Part shown: positions 6,443 to 62,735 of the stretch, piece by piece
Position numbering within the stretch: position 1 is the stretch's first letter
How the letters are laid out: every line of letters starts with the position of its first letter
From: Streptomyces sp. NBC_01471
GTDB lineage: Bacteria > Actinomycetota > Actinomycetes > Streptomycetales > Streptomycetaceae
NCBI RefSeq assembly: GCF_041438865.1
Contig: NZ_CP109450.1
Coordinates: 4,857,001 to 4,921,000, forward strand
Reading direction: 5' to 3'
DNA: 64,000 bases
Translations under genes and position numbers: made by a program
The notes under the pieces: generated by a model
What the model saw: the letters and a program-made list of their open reading frames with translations, nothing else
Told to the model about the DNA's origin: nothing
The model's database searches: none

Positions 6443-7858
6443 ATGAGCACCACGGAGCGTCCCAGGATCCTCGTAGTTGGAGGCGGGTACGTAGGCCTGT
6501 ACGCAGCTCGACGCATTCTCAAGAAGATGCGCTACGGCGAAGCGACCGTCACGGTCGTGGACCCGCGCTCGTACATGACGTACCAGCCCTTCCTCCCCGA
6601 AGCTGCTGCCGGCAGCATCTCGCCTCGGCATGTCGTCGTCCCGCTGCGACGCGTGCTGCCCAAGGCCGAGATCCTCACCGGCCGAGTCACCACGATCGAC
6701 CAGGACCGCAAGGTCGCCACGGTCGCGCCGCTCGTCGGCGAGGCCTACGAGCTGCCCTTCGACTACCTGGTCATCGCGCTCGGCGCGGTCTCCCGCACCT
6801 TCCCGATCCCCGGCCTCGCCGAGCAGGGCATCGGCATGAAGGGCGTCGAGGAAGCGATCGGCCTGCGCAACCACGTCCTTGAGCAGCTCGACAAGGCCGA
6901 CTCGACGACCGACGAGGACGTCCGCCGCAAGGCGCTCACCTTCGTCTTCGTCGGCGGTGGCTTCGCAGGCGCGGAGACCATCGGCGAGGTCGAGGACATG
7001 GCCAGGGACGCCGCGAAGTACTACACCAACGTCAAGCGCGAGGACATGCGCTTCCTGCTGGTCGACGTGGCGGACAAGATCCTTCCCGAGGTCGGGCCGA
7101 AGCTCGGCGCGTACGGCAAGGAGCACCTGGAGTCCCGCGGGGTCGAGGTCTACCTCAAGACCGGTATGGACTCCTGCGTCGACGGCCACGTGGTACTGAA
7201 CAACGGCCTTGAGGTCGACGCCGACACGCTCGTCTGGACCGCCGGCGTCAAGCCCAACCCGGTCCTGGCGCGCTACGGTCTGCCGCTCGGCCCCCGCGGC
7301 CACGTGGACACCTCCGAGAAGCTCCAGGTGCAGGGCACTGACTACATCTGGGCCGCGGGCGACAACGCGCAGGTCCCGGACATGGCCGCCCGCAAGGCCG
7401 GTGTCGAGAACGCCTGGTGCCCGCCGAACGCCCAGCACGCGCTGCGCCAGGCCAAGGTGCTCGGCGACAACGTCATCTCGGGCATGCGCGGTTTCCCGCA
7501 GGGCGACTACGAGCACGCCAACAAGGGTGCGGTGGCGGGCCTCGGCCTCCACAAGGGCGTCGCGATGATCGTCATGGGCAAGATGAAGATCAAGCTCAAG
7601 GGGCGCCTCGCCTGGTACATGCACCGTGGCTACCACGGCCTCGCGGTGCCGACCTGGAACCGCAAGATCCGCGTCGTCGCCGACTGGACGCTCGCGATGT
7701 TCCTCAAGCGCGAGGTCGTATCGCTCGGCGCCATGGAGACTCCGCGCGAGGAGTTCTACGAGGCGGCCAAGCCGGCGCCCCGTCCCGCCGCGGCGAAGTC
7801 CGAAGCCGGGAAGCCGGAAGCCGCCACGAAGGCCGACGCCGAGAAGGCCAAGGCCTGA
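6443..7858 (+). CDS. ndh: Type II NADH dehydrogenase (non-proton-pumping NADH:quinone oxidoreductase)
   Basis: 471 aa flavoprotein. Residues 8-16 (ILVVGGGYV) are the FAD Rossmann site; a second dinucleotide-binding site for NADH lies at about 168-176 (FVFVGGGFAG). TWTAGVKPNPVLA-like text at about 268 and YIWAAGDNAQVPD near 306 are the FAD-binding C-terminal motifs of this class. The C-terminal part contains the membrane-anchoring amphipathic segment (KIKLKGRLAWYMHRGYHG), then a Lys/Ala/Pro-rich tail from about 440. It passes electrons from NADH to menaquinone at the inner face of the membrane. Probably Rex-controlled through the upstream operator. Confidence 0.95.
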   Translation: MSTTERPRILVVGGGYVGLYAARRILKKMRYGEATVTVVDPRSYMTYQPFLPEAAAGSISPRHVVVPLRRVLPKAEILTGRVTTIDQDRKVATVAPLVGEAYELPFDYLVIALGAVSRTFPIPGLAEQGIGMKGVEEAIGLRNHVLEQLDKADSTTDEDVRRKALTFVFVGGGFAGAETIGEVEDMARDAAKYYTNVKREDMRFLLVDVADKILPEVGPKLGAYGKEHLESRGVEVYLKTGMDSCVDGHVVLNNGLEVDADTLVWTAGVKPNPVLARYGLPLGPRGHVDTSEKLQVQGTDYIWAAGDNAQVPDMAARKAGVENAWCPPNAQHALRQAKVLGDNVISGMRGFPQGDYEHANKGAVAGLGLHKGVAMIVMGKMKIKLKGRLAWYMHRGYHGLAVPTWNRKIRVVADWTLAMFLKREVVSLGAMETPREEFYEAAKPAPRPAAAKSEAGKPEAATKADAEKAKA

Positions 7859-12812: not shown

Positions 12813-13211
12813 GTGGGGCTCCTGTTCGGAACGGGATGCGGGGACCTCTTCATCCTGTCGGCCGCCCGGCGCCGGATCGTCCCTCCGCATGCCCGTTCCT
12901 CCGGCCGCCTTGAGAGTGACCGGGAGGGCGCCGCCTCCTCCTCCGGTATGACACCGCCCCCGAGACCCGTCCCCCTCAGGTGCCCCGGCCCGGCGGCGGG
13001 CCGTGACGGAGGGCCGCGACAGGCGACTTTCCGTCAATCCCGTACCCCCCGGTACGGGGCCGCCACCACGTGCGGCATGTGCCGATGGCGCATCCACTGG
13101 CTGACGCACCTTCAGGCATCAATAAAATAAGACAACATCGGGTTAAGGGTCCCCTGCCCGGGCGGCCCGTCCGGATAGTCTCTGAATCGCGAATGCGGTG
13201 CCGCGCGTCGT
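12813..13211. promoter_or_regulatory. Region between the ABC operon and bldA
   Basis: About 400 nt with promoters firing in both directions. No gene is supported. A local AT-rich patch (ATAAAATAA, 13122-13130) stands out. TAGTCT at 13176-13181 is a good -10 candidate for bldA, about 30 nt before the mature tRNA 5' end; the matching -35 is weak. Confidence 0.5.
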
Positions 13212-13294
13212 GCCCGGATGGTGGAATGCAGACACGGCGAGCTTAAACCTCGCTGCCCCTCGGGGGCGTACCGGTTCAAGTCCGGTTCCGGGCA
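13212..13294 (+). tRNA. bldA: tRNA-Leu, anticodon UAA (bldA), reads the rare UUA codon
   Basis: Class II tRNA that folds fully: acceptor GCCCGGA (13212-13218) with TCCGGGC (13287-13293), anticodon stem GCGAG (13237-13241) with CTCGC (13249-13253), loop CTTAAAC with anticodon TAA at 13244-13246, a long variable arm (GC-rich hairpin) as required for tRNA-Leu, and T-arm ACCGG-TTCAAGT-CCGGT (13270-13286). Discriminator A at 13294; CCA is not encoded. In Streptomyces this is bldA: the only tRNA for UUA, a codon nearly confined to developmental and secondary-metabolism genes, so the abundance of the mature tRNA gates aerial growth and antibiotic production. TTA codons in this window occur in two genes (codon 72 at 18812-18814 and codon 143 at 36233-36235). 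Confidence 0.97.
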
Positions 13295-13423
13295 CCTCCG
13301 CCAGGCGCCGGGCGCGGCCGGTGCCGGGATCGCGGAAAGATCCTTCCCAGGCAGTACACCCTTCTCTTTGCTGTCCCATTACTCTGGTCACGAGGCCACG
13401 CACCGTGGCCACTGAGGAGTGAG

Positions 13424-17794: not shown

Positions 17795-19027
17795 TCAGGA
17801 TGGCGGTGCCGGGGGCCGCGCGACCCCCGGCCCCCGGTCCTGCTCCGGGCCGGGAGCGACGGGCGGCTGCTCGCCGCCCGGCAGGTCCCCGGCCGGCTCC
17901 TCCTCGGGCGGGCGGTTCCCGGCCGGCTGCTGTCCGTGCGCGTGGTCCCCGGGCGGCTGCTGTCCGTCCGGATGGCTCCCGGTCGGCGGCCGGCCGTGCC
18001 GCCGCTGCCCGTGCCGCTGCTCCCCGGGTGGTGCGGCGTGCGCCGCCTCCGGTGTCTCCGGCAGGCGCCGCCGCCTGCGGTGCTTCAGCAGGGCCCAGGG
18101 CGCGCGGACCCCTGTGACCTCGGTGCCCGCCTCGGACGCTGCGGCCGACGCGGCCTTGGCCACCGGCAGCATGTCCTCGTCGCGGGTGGCGTCCAGGTGG
18201 TCGGTCTCCGGCCACAGGCCCAGCACCGCGCAGAGCGTGGGCAGCACCGCCATCGCGGCCGTCGCATACCCCTCGGCGGACGGGTGGTAGTTGTCCGGGC
18301 CGAACAGCTCACGGGGGTTCGCCGCGAACTCCGGGCCGAGCATCTCGCCCAGCGACACCGTCCGCCCGCCCTGTTCGACCACCCCGATCGTCTGGGCCGC
18401 CGCCAGCTGCCGGGAGACCCGCCGCGCCAGCCACCGCAGCGGCTGGTAGACGGGCTCGACCGTGCCCAGGTCGGGGCAGGTACCGACGACGACCTCGGCC
18501 CCCGCCGTCCGCAGTCTGCGGACGGCGGTCGCCAGATGCCGTACGGACTGAGTGGCCGGCATCCGGTGGGTCACGTCGTTCGCGCCGATCATGATCACGC
18601 AGACCTCGGGCAGCCGCCCCGGATCGGCGAGCACCAGCCCCACCTGCCGGTCCAGATCGTCCGACATCGCGCCGGGCAGGGCGACGTTCCGCAGGTCCAC
18701 CGGCCGCTCGGCCACCGCTGCGAGCCCGGAGGCCAGCAGCGCGGCCGGGGTCTGACCGGCCCGCCACACGCCCTGGCCCGCCGCCGTCGAGTCGCCGAGC
18801 ATGGCCAGCCGTAACGGCTCCAGATGCCCCGTGCGGCCCGCGAACGCCAGCCCGTACCGCCCGTCCGCGCTCGGTGCCGTAGGGGCCCGCCCGCCGCCCA
18901 CGGAACGCTTCGCCAGCTGGACCTCCGCGAGCAGCACCCCCACCGCGGCCGCTCCGACCAGCCCGATGCTTCCGCCTCCGTATGCCGCGCCCGCGGCGAT
19001 CCGTCGCGCCACCCTCGCCCTCGACAC
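17795..19027 (-). CDS. Membrane-anchored SGNH/GDSL hydrolase with a TTA codon
   Basis: 410 aa. GTG 19027 has GGAGG 6 nt upstream, giving MSRARVARRIAAGAAYGGGS. One N-terminal helix (about 18-35) anchors or exports it. SGNH blocks: block I RLAMLGDSTAAGQG (Ser nucleophile, about 77), block II Gly in NVALPGAMSDDL, block III Asn in VCVIMIGANDVTHRM, block V NYHPSAEGYATAA (catalytic Asp/His region). Family members are esterases or lipases. From about 310 a disordered tail of Gly/Gln/Pro/His-rich repeats (PPGEQRHGQRRHG, then PDGQQPPGDHAHGQQ). Codon 72 is TTA (complement of 18812-18814, in GAG-CCG-TTA-CGG), so synthesis should need bldA, which lies in this window. Substrate unknown. Confidence 0.9.
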   Translation of the reverse strand: MSRARVARRIAAGAAYGGGSIGLVGAAAVGVLLAEVQLAKRSVGGGRAPTAPSADGRYGLAFAGRTGHLEPLRLAMLGDSTAAGQGVWRAGQTPAALLASGLAAVAERPVDLRNVALPGAMSDDLDRQVGLVLADPGRLPEVCVIMIGANDVTHRMPATQSVRHLATAVRRLRTAGAEVVVGTCPDLGTVEPVYQPLRWLARRVSRQLAAAQTIGVVEQGGRTVSLGEMLGPEFAANPRELFGPDNYHPSAEGYATAAMAVLPTLCAVLGLWPETDHLDATRDEDMLPVAKAASAAASEAGTEVTGVRAPWALLKHRRRRRLPETPEAAHAAPPGEQRHGQRRHGRPPTGSHPDGQQPPGDHAHGQQPAGNRPPEEEPAGDLPGGEQPPVAPGPEQDRGPGVARPPAPPS

Positions 19028-34411: not shown

Positions 34412-34786
34412 TCACACCTCCAGCTCGGCCTCGATCTTCTTCAGCTGATGACGGGCCATCGCGAGGTTCGCGCGGGACTTGTCCAGCGCCAGATAGAGGA
34501 ACAGGCCGTTGTTCCCACGCCCCTTGAGCAGCCGGATCAGGTGGTACTGCTCGCCCAGGGTGATCAGGATGTCCTCGATCTCGTCCGTGAGACCGAGGTG
34601 CTCCATGGTCCGCACCTTGGCGCGCACGACATCCGTGTTCCCGGCCGCGGCCACGGCCAGATCGAGGTCCTTGCCGCCGCCGAGCGTGCCGAGGGCCATG
34701 CCGCTGGTGTAGTCGACGAGGGCCACGCCGATGGTGCCCTCGATCGTGCTCATCGCGTCCTTGAGTGCGGTTTCGGTGTTCGCCAT
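34412..34786 (-). CDS. Roadblock/LC7-domain protein
   Basis: 124 aa from ATG 34786 (MANTETALKDAMSTIEG). It is a single roadblock fold: TIGVALVDYTSGMALGTLGGG, then EDILITLGEQYHLIRLLKG and NNGLFLYLALDKSRANLAMARHQLKKIE. Roadblock proteins are partners or GAPs of small Ras-like GTPases (MglB in bacteria). An alternative start at ATG 34936 would add 50 residues; it overlaps the upstream stop (ATGA), has GGAGAG in front and good codon bias, but the added stretch is low-complexity and not part of the domain. It is last of a four-gene leftward operon. Confidence 0.85.
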   Translation of the reverse strand: MANTETALKDAMSTIEGTIGVALVDYTSGMALGTLGGGKDLDLAVAAAGNTDVVRAKVRTMEHLGLTDEIEDILITLGEQYHLIRLLKGRGNNGLFLYLALDKSRANLAMARHQLKKIEAELEV

Positions 34787-34932: not shown

Positions 34933-35370
34933 TCATGGGCTCTCCGCGCGTGGGCTCTCCGGGCGTGGCCTCTCCGGGCGTGGGGTCTCCGGCCGGTCGA
35001 GGGCGCCGTCGACCAGCTCGCCGATCCGGGTGCTCGACCGGCGGGCCTCCAGGTGGAGCCGGCCCACGTTGATACGCGGATGGGCGAGCAGGGTGAGCAC
35101 GGCGGACGGGCCTGCCGCGTACGTCGCCACATAGCCGTGCTCGCCGCGGACCAGCAGCTCACGGAAGGCGCCCTGGCCCGTCGTCTCGGTCAGCCGCTGC
35201 GCGACGCCGAGGGCCGCGGCGGTGAGCGCGGCGACGGACTCGCCCTCGGCCGACGTGGTGTCCTGTGCCAGCACCAGACCGTCGGCGCTGGCCGCGAGCG
35301 CCCCGCTGATCAGGGGCACCCGGGCTCTCAACCGCCGCAGCTCGTCCAGCACTTCGGCCTCCGCGGACAT
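34933..35370 (-). CDS. Roadblock/LC7-domain protein
   Basis: 145 aa. ATG 35370 has AGGAGA 6 nt upstream. Roadblock core: LDELRRLRARVPLISGALAA, then ADGLVLAQDT, SVAALTAAALGVAQRL and FRELLVRGEHGYVATYAAG, AVLTLLAHPRINVGRLHLEAR. The C-terminus is an Arg/Pro/Glu tail repeating RPE-, RPESPRAESP. It belongs to the MglB-like class found in Streptomyces conservons as CvnB, but no CvnA kinase, CvnC or CvnD GTPase gene is adjacent. The next gene's possible early start overlaps this stop. Confidence 0.85.
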   Translation of the reverse strand: MSAEAEVLDELRRLRARVPLISGALAASADGLVLAQDTTSAEGESVAALTAAALGVAQRLTETTGQGAFRELLVRGEHGYVATYAAGPSAVLTLLAHPRINVGRLHLEARRSSTRIGELVDGALDRPETPRPERPRPESPRAESP

Positions 35371-35408: not shown

Positions 35409-36197
35409 TCACAGCGTGGCCTCCAATGCGTCTCGCAGCCGGCGGAGCAGGGCGACATCCGGGTCGGGCGACACGTCGGCGACCGCGTCCGCGTACCGGG
35501 CGGGGACCGCGGACGCCTGCGGTACGGGTGCGCGCGGGGTCTCGACGGCACCGGCGGCTGCCAGCCTGCGGACGTCGATGAGGGTGTGGAAGGCGGGGCG
35601 GCCCAGCGCCCGGGCGATGCCGGGCGGCGTGCGGACCCCGTCCACCAGGTCGAGCACGGCGCGCTGGCGCGGGGTGACCGGGGTGTCGGGGCGGCTCCGG
35701 GCCCGTACCACCGGGGCGGTGTCGATGTCCGGGTACGGCCAGAGCCGGTCGAGCAGTTCCCGGCGGCGGGCGGCCTCCCGCTCCACCGCTTCGGCCGGCA
35801 CCGGGTGCACGGCGCCGATCCAGTGGGCGACGCCGTAGCGGAAGCGGGTGGGGCCGCTGCTGGGGGCGAGGGCGAAGTACGCCGCGTCGTGCAGGGCGCC
35901 GAGATGGCATATCTCCAGCTCACCGTCCGCGACCTGGCCGCTCTCGACCAGGAACCGGCCGACGCGGCCGTGCGCTCCGGCCTGGTCCAGTGCCTGCCGC
36001 CACCCTTCGGGGCGCAGCCGTCCCGAGGTGGTCAGCAGGACGTCGATCCCGGGGGCGACCGGGCTCTCGGCGTGCACCACCTGGCCGTCGACCAGATAGA
36101 GCGTGCCGCGGTCACGCAGCAGGGCGCCGGTGGCGCGTTCGCCCGCGAGGCGGACGAGCATGGGCGAGACGCCCGCGGGTCTGGTGGCGGTGGTCAT
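35409..36197 (-). CDS. DUF4388/PatA-like regulator-type protein
   Basis: 262 aa. ATG 36197 overlaps the upstream stop by 1 nt (TGATG). The N-terminal region (about 10-110) reads like DUF4388: MLVRLAGERATGALLRDRGTLYLVDGQVVHAESP, then ALDQAGAHGRVGRFLVESGQ, and a beta-rich part ending FRYGVAHWIGAVHPVPAEAVE. The C-terminal region (about 165-225) is a winged-helix-like segment (TPRQRAVLDLVDGVRTPPGIARALGRP). DUF4388 proteins work with roadblock proteins and GTPases in signalling. Lies second in the operon, so translation follows that of the TTA-containing first gene. Confidence 0.75.
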   Translation of the reverse strand: MTTATRPAGVSPMLVRLAGERATGALLRDRGTLYLVDGQVVHAESPVAPGIDVLLTTSGRLRPEGWRQALDQAGAHGRVGRFLVESGQVADGELEICHLGALHDAAYFALAPSSGPTRFRYGVAHWIGAVHPVPAEAVEREAARRRELLDRLWPYPDIDTAPVVRARSRPDTPVTPRQRAVLDLVDGVRTPPGIARALGRPAFHTLIDVRRLAAAGAVETPRAPVPQASAVPARYADAVADVSPDPDVALLRRLRDALEATL

Positions 36198-36661
36198 CAC
36201 AGCACCAGTCGCTCTGCCAGGTCCCGCAGCCGTAATCGGGCGAGCGCCAGATTGCCCTCGTCGCGGTCGAGCCAGAGATGCAGGAAGACACTGCTGTCGA
36301 AGGTCGTCTCCACGAACCGCAGGACGTGGTAGCCGGTGCGGTTGGTGACGATGACGTCCTCGACGGGAAGCCCCTTGCCGCGGGCGGGTGTTGAGGCGCC
36401 GGACGGCTCGTCCGTGCCGTCCGTGTCTTCCGTGCCCCCGGCCGTGTCGTCCGTCCCGGTATCCGGGGCCGGGGCGAACGCGGGGTGTTCGGCGGCCATC
36501 CTGGCCAGCTCCGCGGTCTCGGCCGCGGTCGTCTCGTGGTCGTTGTTGGGCGACGCGCCGATGGTGCCGAGCGCGAGCCCGCTGGTCCAGTCGACCACGG
36601 CGGCACCGAGGGAGCCGGGCAGCCGCATGGCTTCCAGCAGACACTCGTCGATTCCGGGCAC
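36197..36661 (-). CDS. Roadblock/LC7-like protein with acidic insertion and a TTA codon
   Basis: 154 aa from GTG 36661, preceded by GGAGGGGAG at 6 nt. The roadblock fold is split: LGAAVVDWTSGLALGTIGASP at 18-38 resembles the sister protein's TIGVALVDYTSGMALGT, and VEDVIVTNRTGYHVLRFVE with FLHLWLDRDEGNLALARLRL forms the C-terminal half; between them is an acidic, Thr-rich insert (about 62-95). Codon 143 is TTA (complement of 36233-36235, CGA-TTA-CGG), so completion should depend on bldA; because the downstream gene is coupled by TGATG, the operon may respond as a unit. First gene of the operon. Confidence 0.85.
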   Translation of the reverse strand: MPGIDECLLEAMRLPGSLGAAVVDWTSGLALGTIGASPNNDHETTAAETAELARMAAEHPAFAPAPDTGTDDTAGGTEDTDGTDEPSGASTPARGKGLPVEDVIVTNRTGYHVLRFVETTFDSSVFLHLWLDRDEGNLALARLRLRDLAERLVL

Positions 36662-61253: not shown

Positions 61254-61531
61254 CTGGGTTTTCCTAGGTCAGCAGCCATTTTCGATGGCTCGCGGACTGT
61301 GACCGGCTTCCGGTCTGTTCGAGTCCTTTTCGGGCCGATCATGGGCGTCATGCTGGGGATACCCTGGGCTGACACCGGACGGGAAACTGCCTCTCACCTG
61401 CACAAACACAGCGACCCCCGGCACTCTGCCGGGGGTCGTTCGCATGGGCCCTCTCAGGCGACTTCCGCCTGCCTCCGGTGGGGTCGTCCGCGCCGGAGGC
61501 AGCATGCTTGCGATGGCCGCCCGCCCGCGAG
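61254..61531. other. Boundary region between conserved core and right-end island
   Basis: 278 nt without a supported gene, lower GC in places. GTTCGAGTCC at 61317-61326 looks like a tRNA T-loop but no full tRNA folds around it; a remnant attachment site is possible. GCCTCCGG (61471-61478) pairs with CCGGAGGC (61493-61500). Confidence 0.45.
61412..61438. terminator. Terminator hairpin at the island edge
   Basis: CGACCCCCGGCA (61412-61423) with TGCCGGGGGTCG (61427-61438), loop CTC, followed by TT. No gene ends directly upstream except the acyl-CoA dehydrogenase 159 nt away. Confidence 0.8.
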
Positions 61532-61711
61532 ATGCAGCGCACGTTGGACGACGTATCGCAGCAGCTCGACAAGACGGGAGAAACGGCCGGCCAGCTCTTG
61601 GCCGAAGAGGGCGTGTCCGAGCGCTACTTGGCCACGCTTGCGTTTACCTGCAAGGCCATGGCCGACGTCGGCGCCCCTGCCCCCGATCCCTGGCTCGCTT
61701 CGCTCGACTGA
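61532..61711 (+). CDS. Possible small hypothetical protein in the island
   Basis: 59 aa from ATG 61532 (QRTLDDVSQQLDKTGETAGQ ... LASLD). The composition is protein-like, helical, Glu/Leu/Ala-rich, unlike the shadow frames, but no good ribosome site is present and no family is recognised. It may be the tail of a longer decayed gene. The next frame-shifted fragment overlaps its end. Confidence 0.35.
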   Translation: MQRTLDDVSQQLDKTGETAGQLLAEEGVSERYLATLAFTCKAMADVGAPAPDPWLASLD

Positions 61712-62040
61712 TTGGCCGCCGCCCGGAGACGGTCAAGGACCACTTGAAGAGGGCACGCCGGGAGGGATACCCAAGCACGCTCGCCGGCAAGGCCGGTGGG
61801 GAGTTGACCGACAAGACCGAGAAGATTTGGGCTCTATGGCGCGCGGAGGAAGTTAGCGCCCGGACAGTTCAACTTGATATCTCTACAGCCCCCGATGGCC
61901 GCTCGGGGGCTTTGTACCTGGAAGTGCCGAAATCGTGGGTGTACGACAACTGGCGAACGCGGGAGATTCCGTTCCGGAAGGTGGGGCAGTCCCTTCGATG
62001 CCGTCCCGGTGACCTTGAGAAGTGGCCCCCGCCAGCTTGA
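61690..62040 (+). pseudogene. Fragments of HTH and excisionase-like genes, probably decayed element
   Basis: One continuous frame encodes two unrelated pieces. The first (LIGRRPETVKDHLKRARREG, about 61711-61860) looks like a HTH segment of actinophage or plasmid proteins. The second (VPKSWVYDNWRTREIPFRKV then RCRPGDLEKW, about 61920-62030) is the C-terminal half of an excisionase/AlpA-type MerR-like domain and lacks its N-terminal helix. A terminator hairpin with a T-run (61887-61913) lies between them, so they cannot be one working gene. No ribosome site or start codon is convincing. Confidence 0.45.
61887..61913 (+). terminator. Intrinsic terminator inside the decayed element
   Basis: AGCCCCCGA (61887-61895) with TCGGGGGCT (61903-61911), loop TGGCCGC, then TT. 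Confidence 0.75.
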
Positions 62041-62072: not shown

Positions 62073-62735
62073 TCAGCGCTTTACGCCGCGTACGATCAGG
62101 GTTCCGATGTGTCCCTCGGTGGGGGCGCCCAGGACGGTTGCGTCGATGTCCTCGAAACCATTCTTGGCGAGAAGCGCGGCCCACTTACGGGGTGTGTAGC
62201 TGTACCGGTAGGTGAACATGGCCTTGCCCGCGAAGCCGCCTTTGTACATACCCTGGGGGCCGTAGGCCCCTGGGATGGCCGGAGGTTGGGAGAAGACCAA
62301 CCTGCCACCAGGGTTGAGCCGCTTGGCGATCAGCGGGAAGAGCTTCACCGGGTCGGTGAACCAAACCGCTCCGAAGATTGAGTAGATGGCGTCGTACGTC
62401 TTGGTGCTCGCCGCGAGGTGCTCAAGCACTTCCGCACAAATGAACTCCGCCCCCATAGGTCCCCAGCGTTCGGTCAGGTGTTTGACGGCGACCGGAGACA
62501 GGTCCAGGCCCGTGACCTTGACTCCCTGGTTCAGAAGGAACGCCGACGCTCGCCCAGTACCGCAGCCGATTTCCAGTGCCGTTCTCGGCGAACCCAGGAG
62601 TTCAGGCCCTGGACCGTGTCCGGCGTACTGCGTCCAGCCGACCACCGGTTCAGCCTCCAGGGCCTTGTCCTTCGTGCTCTCGGCGAAGGCGTCCCAGAGT
62701 TCGCGTTCAGAGTCGATGTTGTGCTGAGCGGGCAA
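62073..62735 (-). CDS. Class I SAM-dependent methyltransferase
   Basis: 220 aa from TTG 62735 with GAGGA 6 nt before. Rossmann methyltransferase: motif I TALEIGCGTGRASAFLLNQG (about 53-72), acidic ribose-binding Asp in VTGLDLSPVAVKHL, motif III AIYSIFGAVWFTDPVKLFP, post-motif LNPGGRLVFSQPP. The N-terminus SERELWDAFAESTKDK is helical. Substrate unknown (small-molecule methyltransferase type). A hairpin at 62763-62793 separates it from the upstream gene, so it has its own promoter or depends on readthrough. Part of the right-end accessory set. Confidence 0.88.
   Translation of the reverse strand: MPAQHNIDSERELWDAFAESTKDKALEAEPVVGWTQYAGHGPGPELLGSPRTALEIGCGTGRASAFLLNQGVKVTGLDLSPVAVKHLTERWGPMGAEFICAEVLEHLAASTKTYDAIYSIFGAVWFTDPVKLFPLIAKRLNPGGRLVFSQPPAIPGAYGPQGMYKGGFAGKAMFTYRYSYTPRKWAALLAKNGFEDIDATVLGAPTEGHIGTLIVRGVKR

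Follow-up and report, generated by a model that had tools for sequence, protein, structure and literature searches.

Genes with a TTA codon are the best-known case of rare-codon control of development, and bldA, the gene of tRNA-Leu(UAA), is required for aerial growth and for some antibiotics. For the majority of TTA codons conservation is poor, and signal is hard to separate from noise. The bldA/AdpA system (PMC4255298) resembles the locus described here in having a single tRNA-Leu(UAA) gene, with UUA-bearing genes as candidate targets. A table in that work records TTA in adpA in 14 of 14 genomes, at an interdomain site; in contrast, the TTA sites of the present operon, which comprises robl1, a DUF4388 gene, robl2 and robl3, vary, and about half of its loci have no TTA codon. 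In another UUA gene, SCO6638, the stop codon overlaps the start of SCO6637, and in a bldA mutant the SCO6638 protein is absent and both RNA and protein of SCO6637 are reduced (PMC2000904). The robl1 and DUF4388 genes have the same arrangement. The two pairs are likened by layout, not by sequence, and the effect measured for SCO6638–SCO6637 would apply here by analogy.

Table 2 of the 2013 FEMS review lists 29 genes or clusters in which TTA is frequent; as in the present operon, the codon occurs in one or another gene of such a cluster and is often missing in some species. One row, SCO0683;0684;0685*, of unknown function and with TTA in 2/12, 4/13 and 2/13, resembles our operon in gene number and TTA fractions, and the two may be the same; no row of that table names a Roadblock or DUF4388 operon. 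The K. setae members of the row are KSE_67090–67110, whereas in the genome presumed to be K. setae the operon lies near gene 6560 (estimated by hand from gene density, with a counting error near 60), and this distance from 6709–6711 leans against the identity without deciding it. Were the two identical, the TTA frequency of the operon would have been noted before and its late expression would gain support; in S. coelicolor, the MII mycelium has strongly raised transcripts of SCO0682–0684 (PMC3610822). In open-licence papers, SCO3074–3078 gave no match, while SCO0683–0685, SCO0681/0682 and KSE_67090–67110 were met only in 'hypothetical protein' rows, with no link to a Roadblock operon, and no mention of a Roadblock nature of SCO0683–0685 was found in the tables and passages cited above. 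Roadblock proteins tied to TTA codons in Streptomyces were not found in the open-licence literature, where 'roadblocks' beside these terms was used figuratively, nor did any of its listed matches place DUF4388 alongside Roadblock or Streptomyces.

As for the proteins themselves, conservons (cvnA-D) also have Roadblock proteins in a small operon, and cvnC13 is another of the TTA-frequent genes of the 2013 review. In the present four-gene unit, by contrast, neither a histidine kinase nor a DUF742 protein nor a small GTPase was recognised by Pfam or NCBIfam. MglB and other Roadblock/LC7 proteins are comparable through robl1, whose model matches the structures 3kye and 6hjm, and through robl2, which hits PF03259; the unit differs from MglB systems in that no MglA-type GTPase was recognised in it and robl1 has no sequence hit in Pfam, NCBIfam or the PDB.

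bldA and the two TTA genes

The window, that is, the whole 64-kb stretch of DNA analysed, contains a single tRNA gene, a tRNA-Leu with anticodon TAA that ARAGORN places at 13212–13296 (Table 1). An end at 13294, as given by the first-pass annotation, is better, because the discriminator A is at 13294 and CCA is absent from the gene. That annotation's assignment of a UUA-reading tRNA with its anticodon at 13244–13246 was confirmed as well, and the gene is bldA. A similarity search (not a whole-genome tRNA scan) found one match in its own genome and matches in 60 of the 61 genus genomes searched, own included; ARAGORN, run on the 29 bldA loci fetched, called tRNA-Leu(taa) 28 times.

Table 1. Positions in the window of bldA, the SGNH hydrolase gene and the Roadblock operon
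Feature	Coordinates	Strand	Basis or remark
Conserved block 5' of bldA	13101..13140	+	CTGA-N7-TCAG (13101-13115), then AT-rich stretch
bldA, tRNA-Leu(UAA)	13212..13294	+	ARAGORN, sequence; one match in own genome
Anticodon TAA of bldA	13244..13246	+	ARAGORN, sequence
SGNH/GDSL hydrolase	17795..19027	-	Pfam PF13472 and PF00657
TTA codon 72 of SGNH	18812..18814	-	Orthologues mostly CTG, TTG, CTC or ATG
robl3, small conserved protein	34412..34786	-	No Pfam hit; own Shine-Dalgarno-like sequence
robl2, Roadblock/LC7 protein	34933..35370	-	PF03259, E 1.8e-18
DUF4388 (PATAN-like) protein gene	35409..36200	-	PF14332, 23.4 bits
robl1, Roadblock-fold protein (predicted), first operon gene	36197..36661	-	AlphaFold2, Foldseek; no Pfam hit
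TTA codon 143 of robl1	36233..36235	-	Codon column of 131 rows

Some 72–111 bases ahead of bldA lies a block that is strongly conserved in the genus. Its AT-rich part reads AATAAAATAAGACAA at 13121, and of 29 other bldA loci, 26 share the 15-mer at that position; in this comparison, for which orientation was fixed, 27 of the 29 loci were placed and 2 dropped. The block may be a regulator site. Control of bldA by BldD and AdpA is mentioned in the 2013 review.

A purpose-written gene caller listed 59 genes in the window, of which two, the SGNH hydrolase gene and robl1, contain an in-frame TTA. These are the same two codons that had been reported before, at 18812–18814 and 36233–36235 on the minus strand, and they are indeed codons 72 and 143 when counted from the starts that bear a ribosome-binding site: GTG 19027, preceded by AGGAGG, for the SGNH gene (a later start would make its TTA codon 44) and GTG 36661, preceded by GGGAGGGG, for robl1. 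The first-pass annotation took both as marks of genes that wait for bldA. For the Roadblock gene this reading is strengthened at the level of the operon, as described below; for the SGNH gene it found no support.

Matches to the SGNH gene were present in 148 of 150 genus genomes, and 109 orthologues were examined, all 109 being kept; these came from 29 search loci, in the genomes that scored best among the 150 searched, and 80 fetched loci. None of the 109 has TTA at codon 72, so that our genome stands alone among 110 sequences, the column of which reads CTG in 78 rows, TTG in 11, CTC in 9, ATG in 6, TTA in 1 (own) and four rarer codons in the remaining 5. Elsewhere in the gene, TTA was seen in two of the 109 orthologues, at codons 33 and 100. 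The SGNH codon is thus private and probably incidental, most likely a recent chance change of TTG or CTG to TTA. As to its distance from bldA, among the 30 bldA places made into loci, the two share a contig in 26 other genomes, and in 23 of these 26 the distance, compared by hand, is below 13 kb (4.5 kb here).

The Roadblock operon and its TTA codons

The genes follow one another in the order robl1, DUF4388, robl2, robl3. From its Pfam match, robl2 is clearly a Roadblock/LC7 protein. For robl1, no sequence hit was obtained in Pfam (E 0.001), NCBIfam (E 0.1) or the PDB (E 0.01), but AlphaFold2 modelled an alpha-beta-beta-alpha-beta-beta-beta-alpha arrangement (pLDDT 87) that Foldseek matched to Roadblock/LC7 and MglB structures, the best PDB matches being Ragulator, a Roadblock/LC7 protein of S. 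avermitilis and MglB (E about 1e-4); robl1 is therefore predicted to have the Roadblock fold. The PF14332 match of the DUF4388 protein falls below the 25-bit cut-off and reaches the cut-off in the genome search, and in a fold search with this protein no PDB structure reached an E value below 0.001. In our genome the start of DUF4388 overlaps the stop of robl1 (GTGA), and Shine-Dalgarno-like sequences precede robl1, robl2 and robl3, with none clear ahead of DUF4388. The 4-base overlap recurs in 67 of 114 loci.

Orthologous loci came from two sources: a scan of named species genomes, which gave 70 loci (68 Streptomyces, one Wenjunlia and one Streptantibioticus), and a genus search with matches in 128 of 150 genomes, from which 30 loci, own included, and further fetched stretches were taken. 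After removal of rows by identity or length thresholds, or as identical copies, 130 of 142 loci remained for robl1, 116 of 131 for DUF4388, 122 of 133 for robl2 and 104 of 129 for robl3. TTA is carried by 32/130 distinct orthologues of robl1, 20/116 of DUF4388 and 18/122 of robl2, and by none of the 104 genus orthologues of robl3; it was likewise missing from the orthologues of dap (0/35), cbs (0/43) and thiolase (0/24). At least one TTA is present in 55 of the 114 loci in which robl1, DUF4388 and robl2 are complete. A second sample, picked by place or match score and not by TTA, gave 23 of 36 further genus loci with TTA in at least one of these three genes (3 of its 39 loci were omitted, their robl1 being already in the set), and robl3 had none in the 23 where it was present, some copies being cut short. 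Family-blind gene calling on 229 loci arrived at the same three genes: of 1215 distinct genes 70 contain TTA, and 64 of these are robl1, DUF4388 or robl2, while the other families with at least 25 members stood at 0/104 (robl3), 0/69, 0/56, 0/42, 0/40, 0/33 and, for SGNH, 2/104. In other genera of the family, TTA was found in 0 of 14 loci of a group (g14) that we take to be Kitasatospora and that contains the presumed K. setae genome, in 7 of 13 of a second group (g7) and in 0 of 1 of a third (g9). One g7 locus also has TTA in robl3.

No single site is common to half of the species or more; the largest shared column, robl2 codon 14, holds TTA in 16 of 123 rows. Codon 143 of robl1 is TTA in 10 of 130 orthologues (11 of 131 rows with our own). 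The codon nevertheless recurs at few columns, namely robl1 8 and 143 and robl2 14. At robl1 8, robl2 14 and the end of DUF4388 the residue is mostly leucine, the alternatives being CTG, CTC, TTG or CTA. Over the three genes, TTA is neither shared nor exclusive, with 55 loci observed against about 56 expected under independence; mutual exclusion is thus not seen. In Streptomyces, UUA codons thus recur in robl1–DUF4388–robl2, with sites that differ between species, and the conservation of TTA expected for the Roadblock gene holds in 10/130 orthologues for the column and 32/130 for the gene, with enrichment in the two adjacent genes as well. As a side observation, one robl1 orthologue (L052, 4001–4558) has three TTA codons in a variable linker.

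Codon use, turnover and possible explanations

The ratio of TTA to TTG is 31:38 in robl1, 21:111 in DUF4388 and 15:32 in robl2, against 2:197 in seven other families of at least 25 members; Fisher p values for the excess, 4e-19 to 2e-7, are descriptive, since related sequences are not independent. TTG makes up 1.7% of leucine codons in robl1 and 1.4% in robl2, within the 0.5–2.6% of the seven other families, and is highest in DUF4388 (111 of 3791). TTA in all three genes thus exceeds what TTG predicts, though part of the DUF4388 TTA may be loose codon use, because TTG is highest there. GC3 stands at about 0.90 for each of robl1 and robl2 and at 0.92 for DUF4388, compared with 0.93–0.97 in the other families compared. 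TTA codons lie near gene ends in 20 of 33 cases in robl1 (12.4 expected), 12 of 21 in DUF4388 (4.3) and 8 of 18 in robl2 (3.8), but TTG clusters likewise (25/40, 55/118 and 26/44, respectively), and end-clustering, not being specific to UUA, was rejected as a sign of gating.

A tree of the operon was built from 115 loci, own included, with the TTA columns removed and loci lacking any of the three genes left out; it has long branches, which may be misplaced. On it, the minimum number of changes is 20 for TTA in robl1, 11 in DUF4388, 7 in robl2 and 24 for any TTA, 16 of these at least 24 being forced by well-supported branches. The codon therefore comes and goes. Its carriers are not independent, and the label is partly inherited, as its clustering shows (24 changes on the tree versus 38.5 in shuffles). 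The extremes are codon 8 of robl1, where 9 carriers need 8 changes, and codon 255 of DUF4388, where 6 carriers need one. Any TTA is found in 44 of 79 loci with overlapping or adjacent robl1 and DUF4388 and in 11 of 35 others (p = 0.02, kinship ignored); TTA in robl1 itself showed no link with an overlapping or adjacent DUF4388 start (23/79 versus 8/35, p = 0.65).

We lean, with a little better than even confidence, towards recurrent gating of the Roadblock operon by bldA, partly through translational coupling; the recurrent UUA would most likely reflect selection that makes translation late or conditional by way of bldA. In our genome the UUA sits 12 codons ahead of the robl1 end, and a ribosome stalled or missing at codon 143 would block the products of both robl1 and DUF4388, because the start of DUF4388, which overlaps the stop of robl1, lacks a clear Shine-Dalgarno sequence of its own. 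Such a stall would affect robl2 less, owing to its own ribosome-binding site. Gating by bldA cannot be essential to the operon, since roughly one locus in two is free of TTA in these genes. We propose more tentatively, and would not yet wager on it, that the gate persists although its codon shifts position, with different lineages putting UUA in different genes and sites within a single translational unit and sparing robl3. Three adjacent genes that repeatedly gain and lose TTA beside nearly TTA-free neighbours offer a natural test of a selected, moving UUA, and they suggest a Roadblock signalling module as part of late growth.

Neutral drift would be one competitor: weakly expressed genes under relaxed codon selection would gain and lose TTA without regulatory meaning, in line with the high turnover on the tree, the GC3 of about 0.90 (0.92 in DUF4388) against 0.93–0.97 and the raised TTG near gene ends and in DUF4388. 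Yet TTG is not raised overall in robl1 or robl2, so that their TTA is disproportionate, robl3 of the same operon remains at 0/104, and TTA returns to robl1 8 and 143 and to robl2 14; we consider drift rather unlikely. Codon 143 of robl1 deserves separate consideration. Its 131 rows read ATC 56, ATA 20, CTG 17, TTA 11 (own included), ATG 9, CTC 9, CAC 6 and three others. Isoleucine is encoded there by ATA in 20 of 76 rows, compared with 19 of 423 elsewhere in robl1 (404 ATC or ATT; p = 3e-8), and leucine by TTA in 11 of 38. The column suggests selection on a base, or on rare or slow codons generally, with UUA as one form. At this site, about 38 nt ahead of the DUF4388 start, what is selected could be the A, a T-A-C-G string or any slow codon (UUA or AUA) rather than UUA as such, which would make our own TTA a rare-codon or RNA/DNA signal. 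Neighbouring leucine columns near the robl1 end have almost no third-place A, and on the tree the third-place A of column 143 takes 13 changes or more, both of which fit this idea, but it leaves TTA at robl1 8, robl2 14 and the DUF4388 end, where leucine prevails, unexplained, and it appears improbable. That both TTA genes, SGNH included, are gated by bldA and switched late, as first proposed, is very hard to credit: both codons are real and in frame, but the SGNH codon is found in 0/109 orthologues, 29 of them from the best-scoring of 150 genomes. Recurrent gating of the operon by bldA thus remains the reading that we prefer.

TTA gene number and the right end of the window

Streptomyces genomes have 51–505 TTA ORFs, with a mean of 177, according to the figures in PMC10327506. 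That the window is enriched in TTA genes was considered and rejected: 2 of 58 genes here compare with 2 of 300 elsewhere (Fisher p = 0.12), the baseline being 20 stretches of 20 kb (400 kb, 300 genes) processed with the same caller, and by the standard of its own genome the window holds an ordinary count of such genes. A second baseline, 0 of 594 called genes (290 + 304) in the presumed K. setae genome, was left unused, as the caller may disfavour AT-rich genes. Also left out of the count was an ORF at 61299–61856 on the plus strand with TTA at codon 116, which has no Pfam hit and overlaps ORF 61444–62040. The latter, also on the plus strand and near the right end, gave a weak HTH_17 hit under the curated cut-off. 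Beyond it, a short ORF on the minus strand (62073–62249) resembles, to judge by eye from its translation, the C-terminal part of a methyltransferase and is perhaps a remnant.
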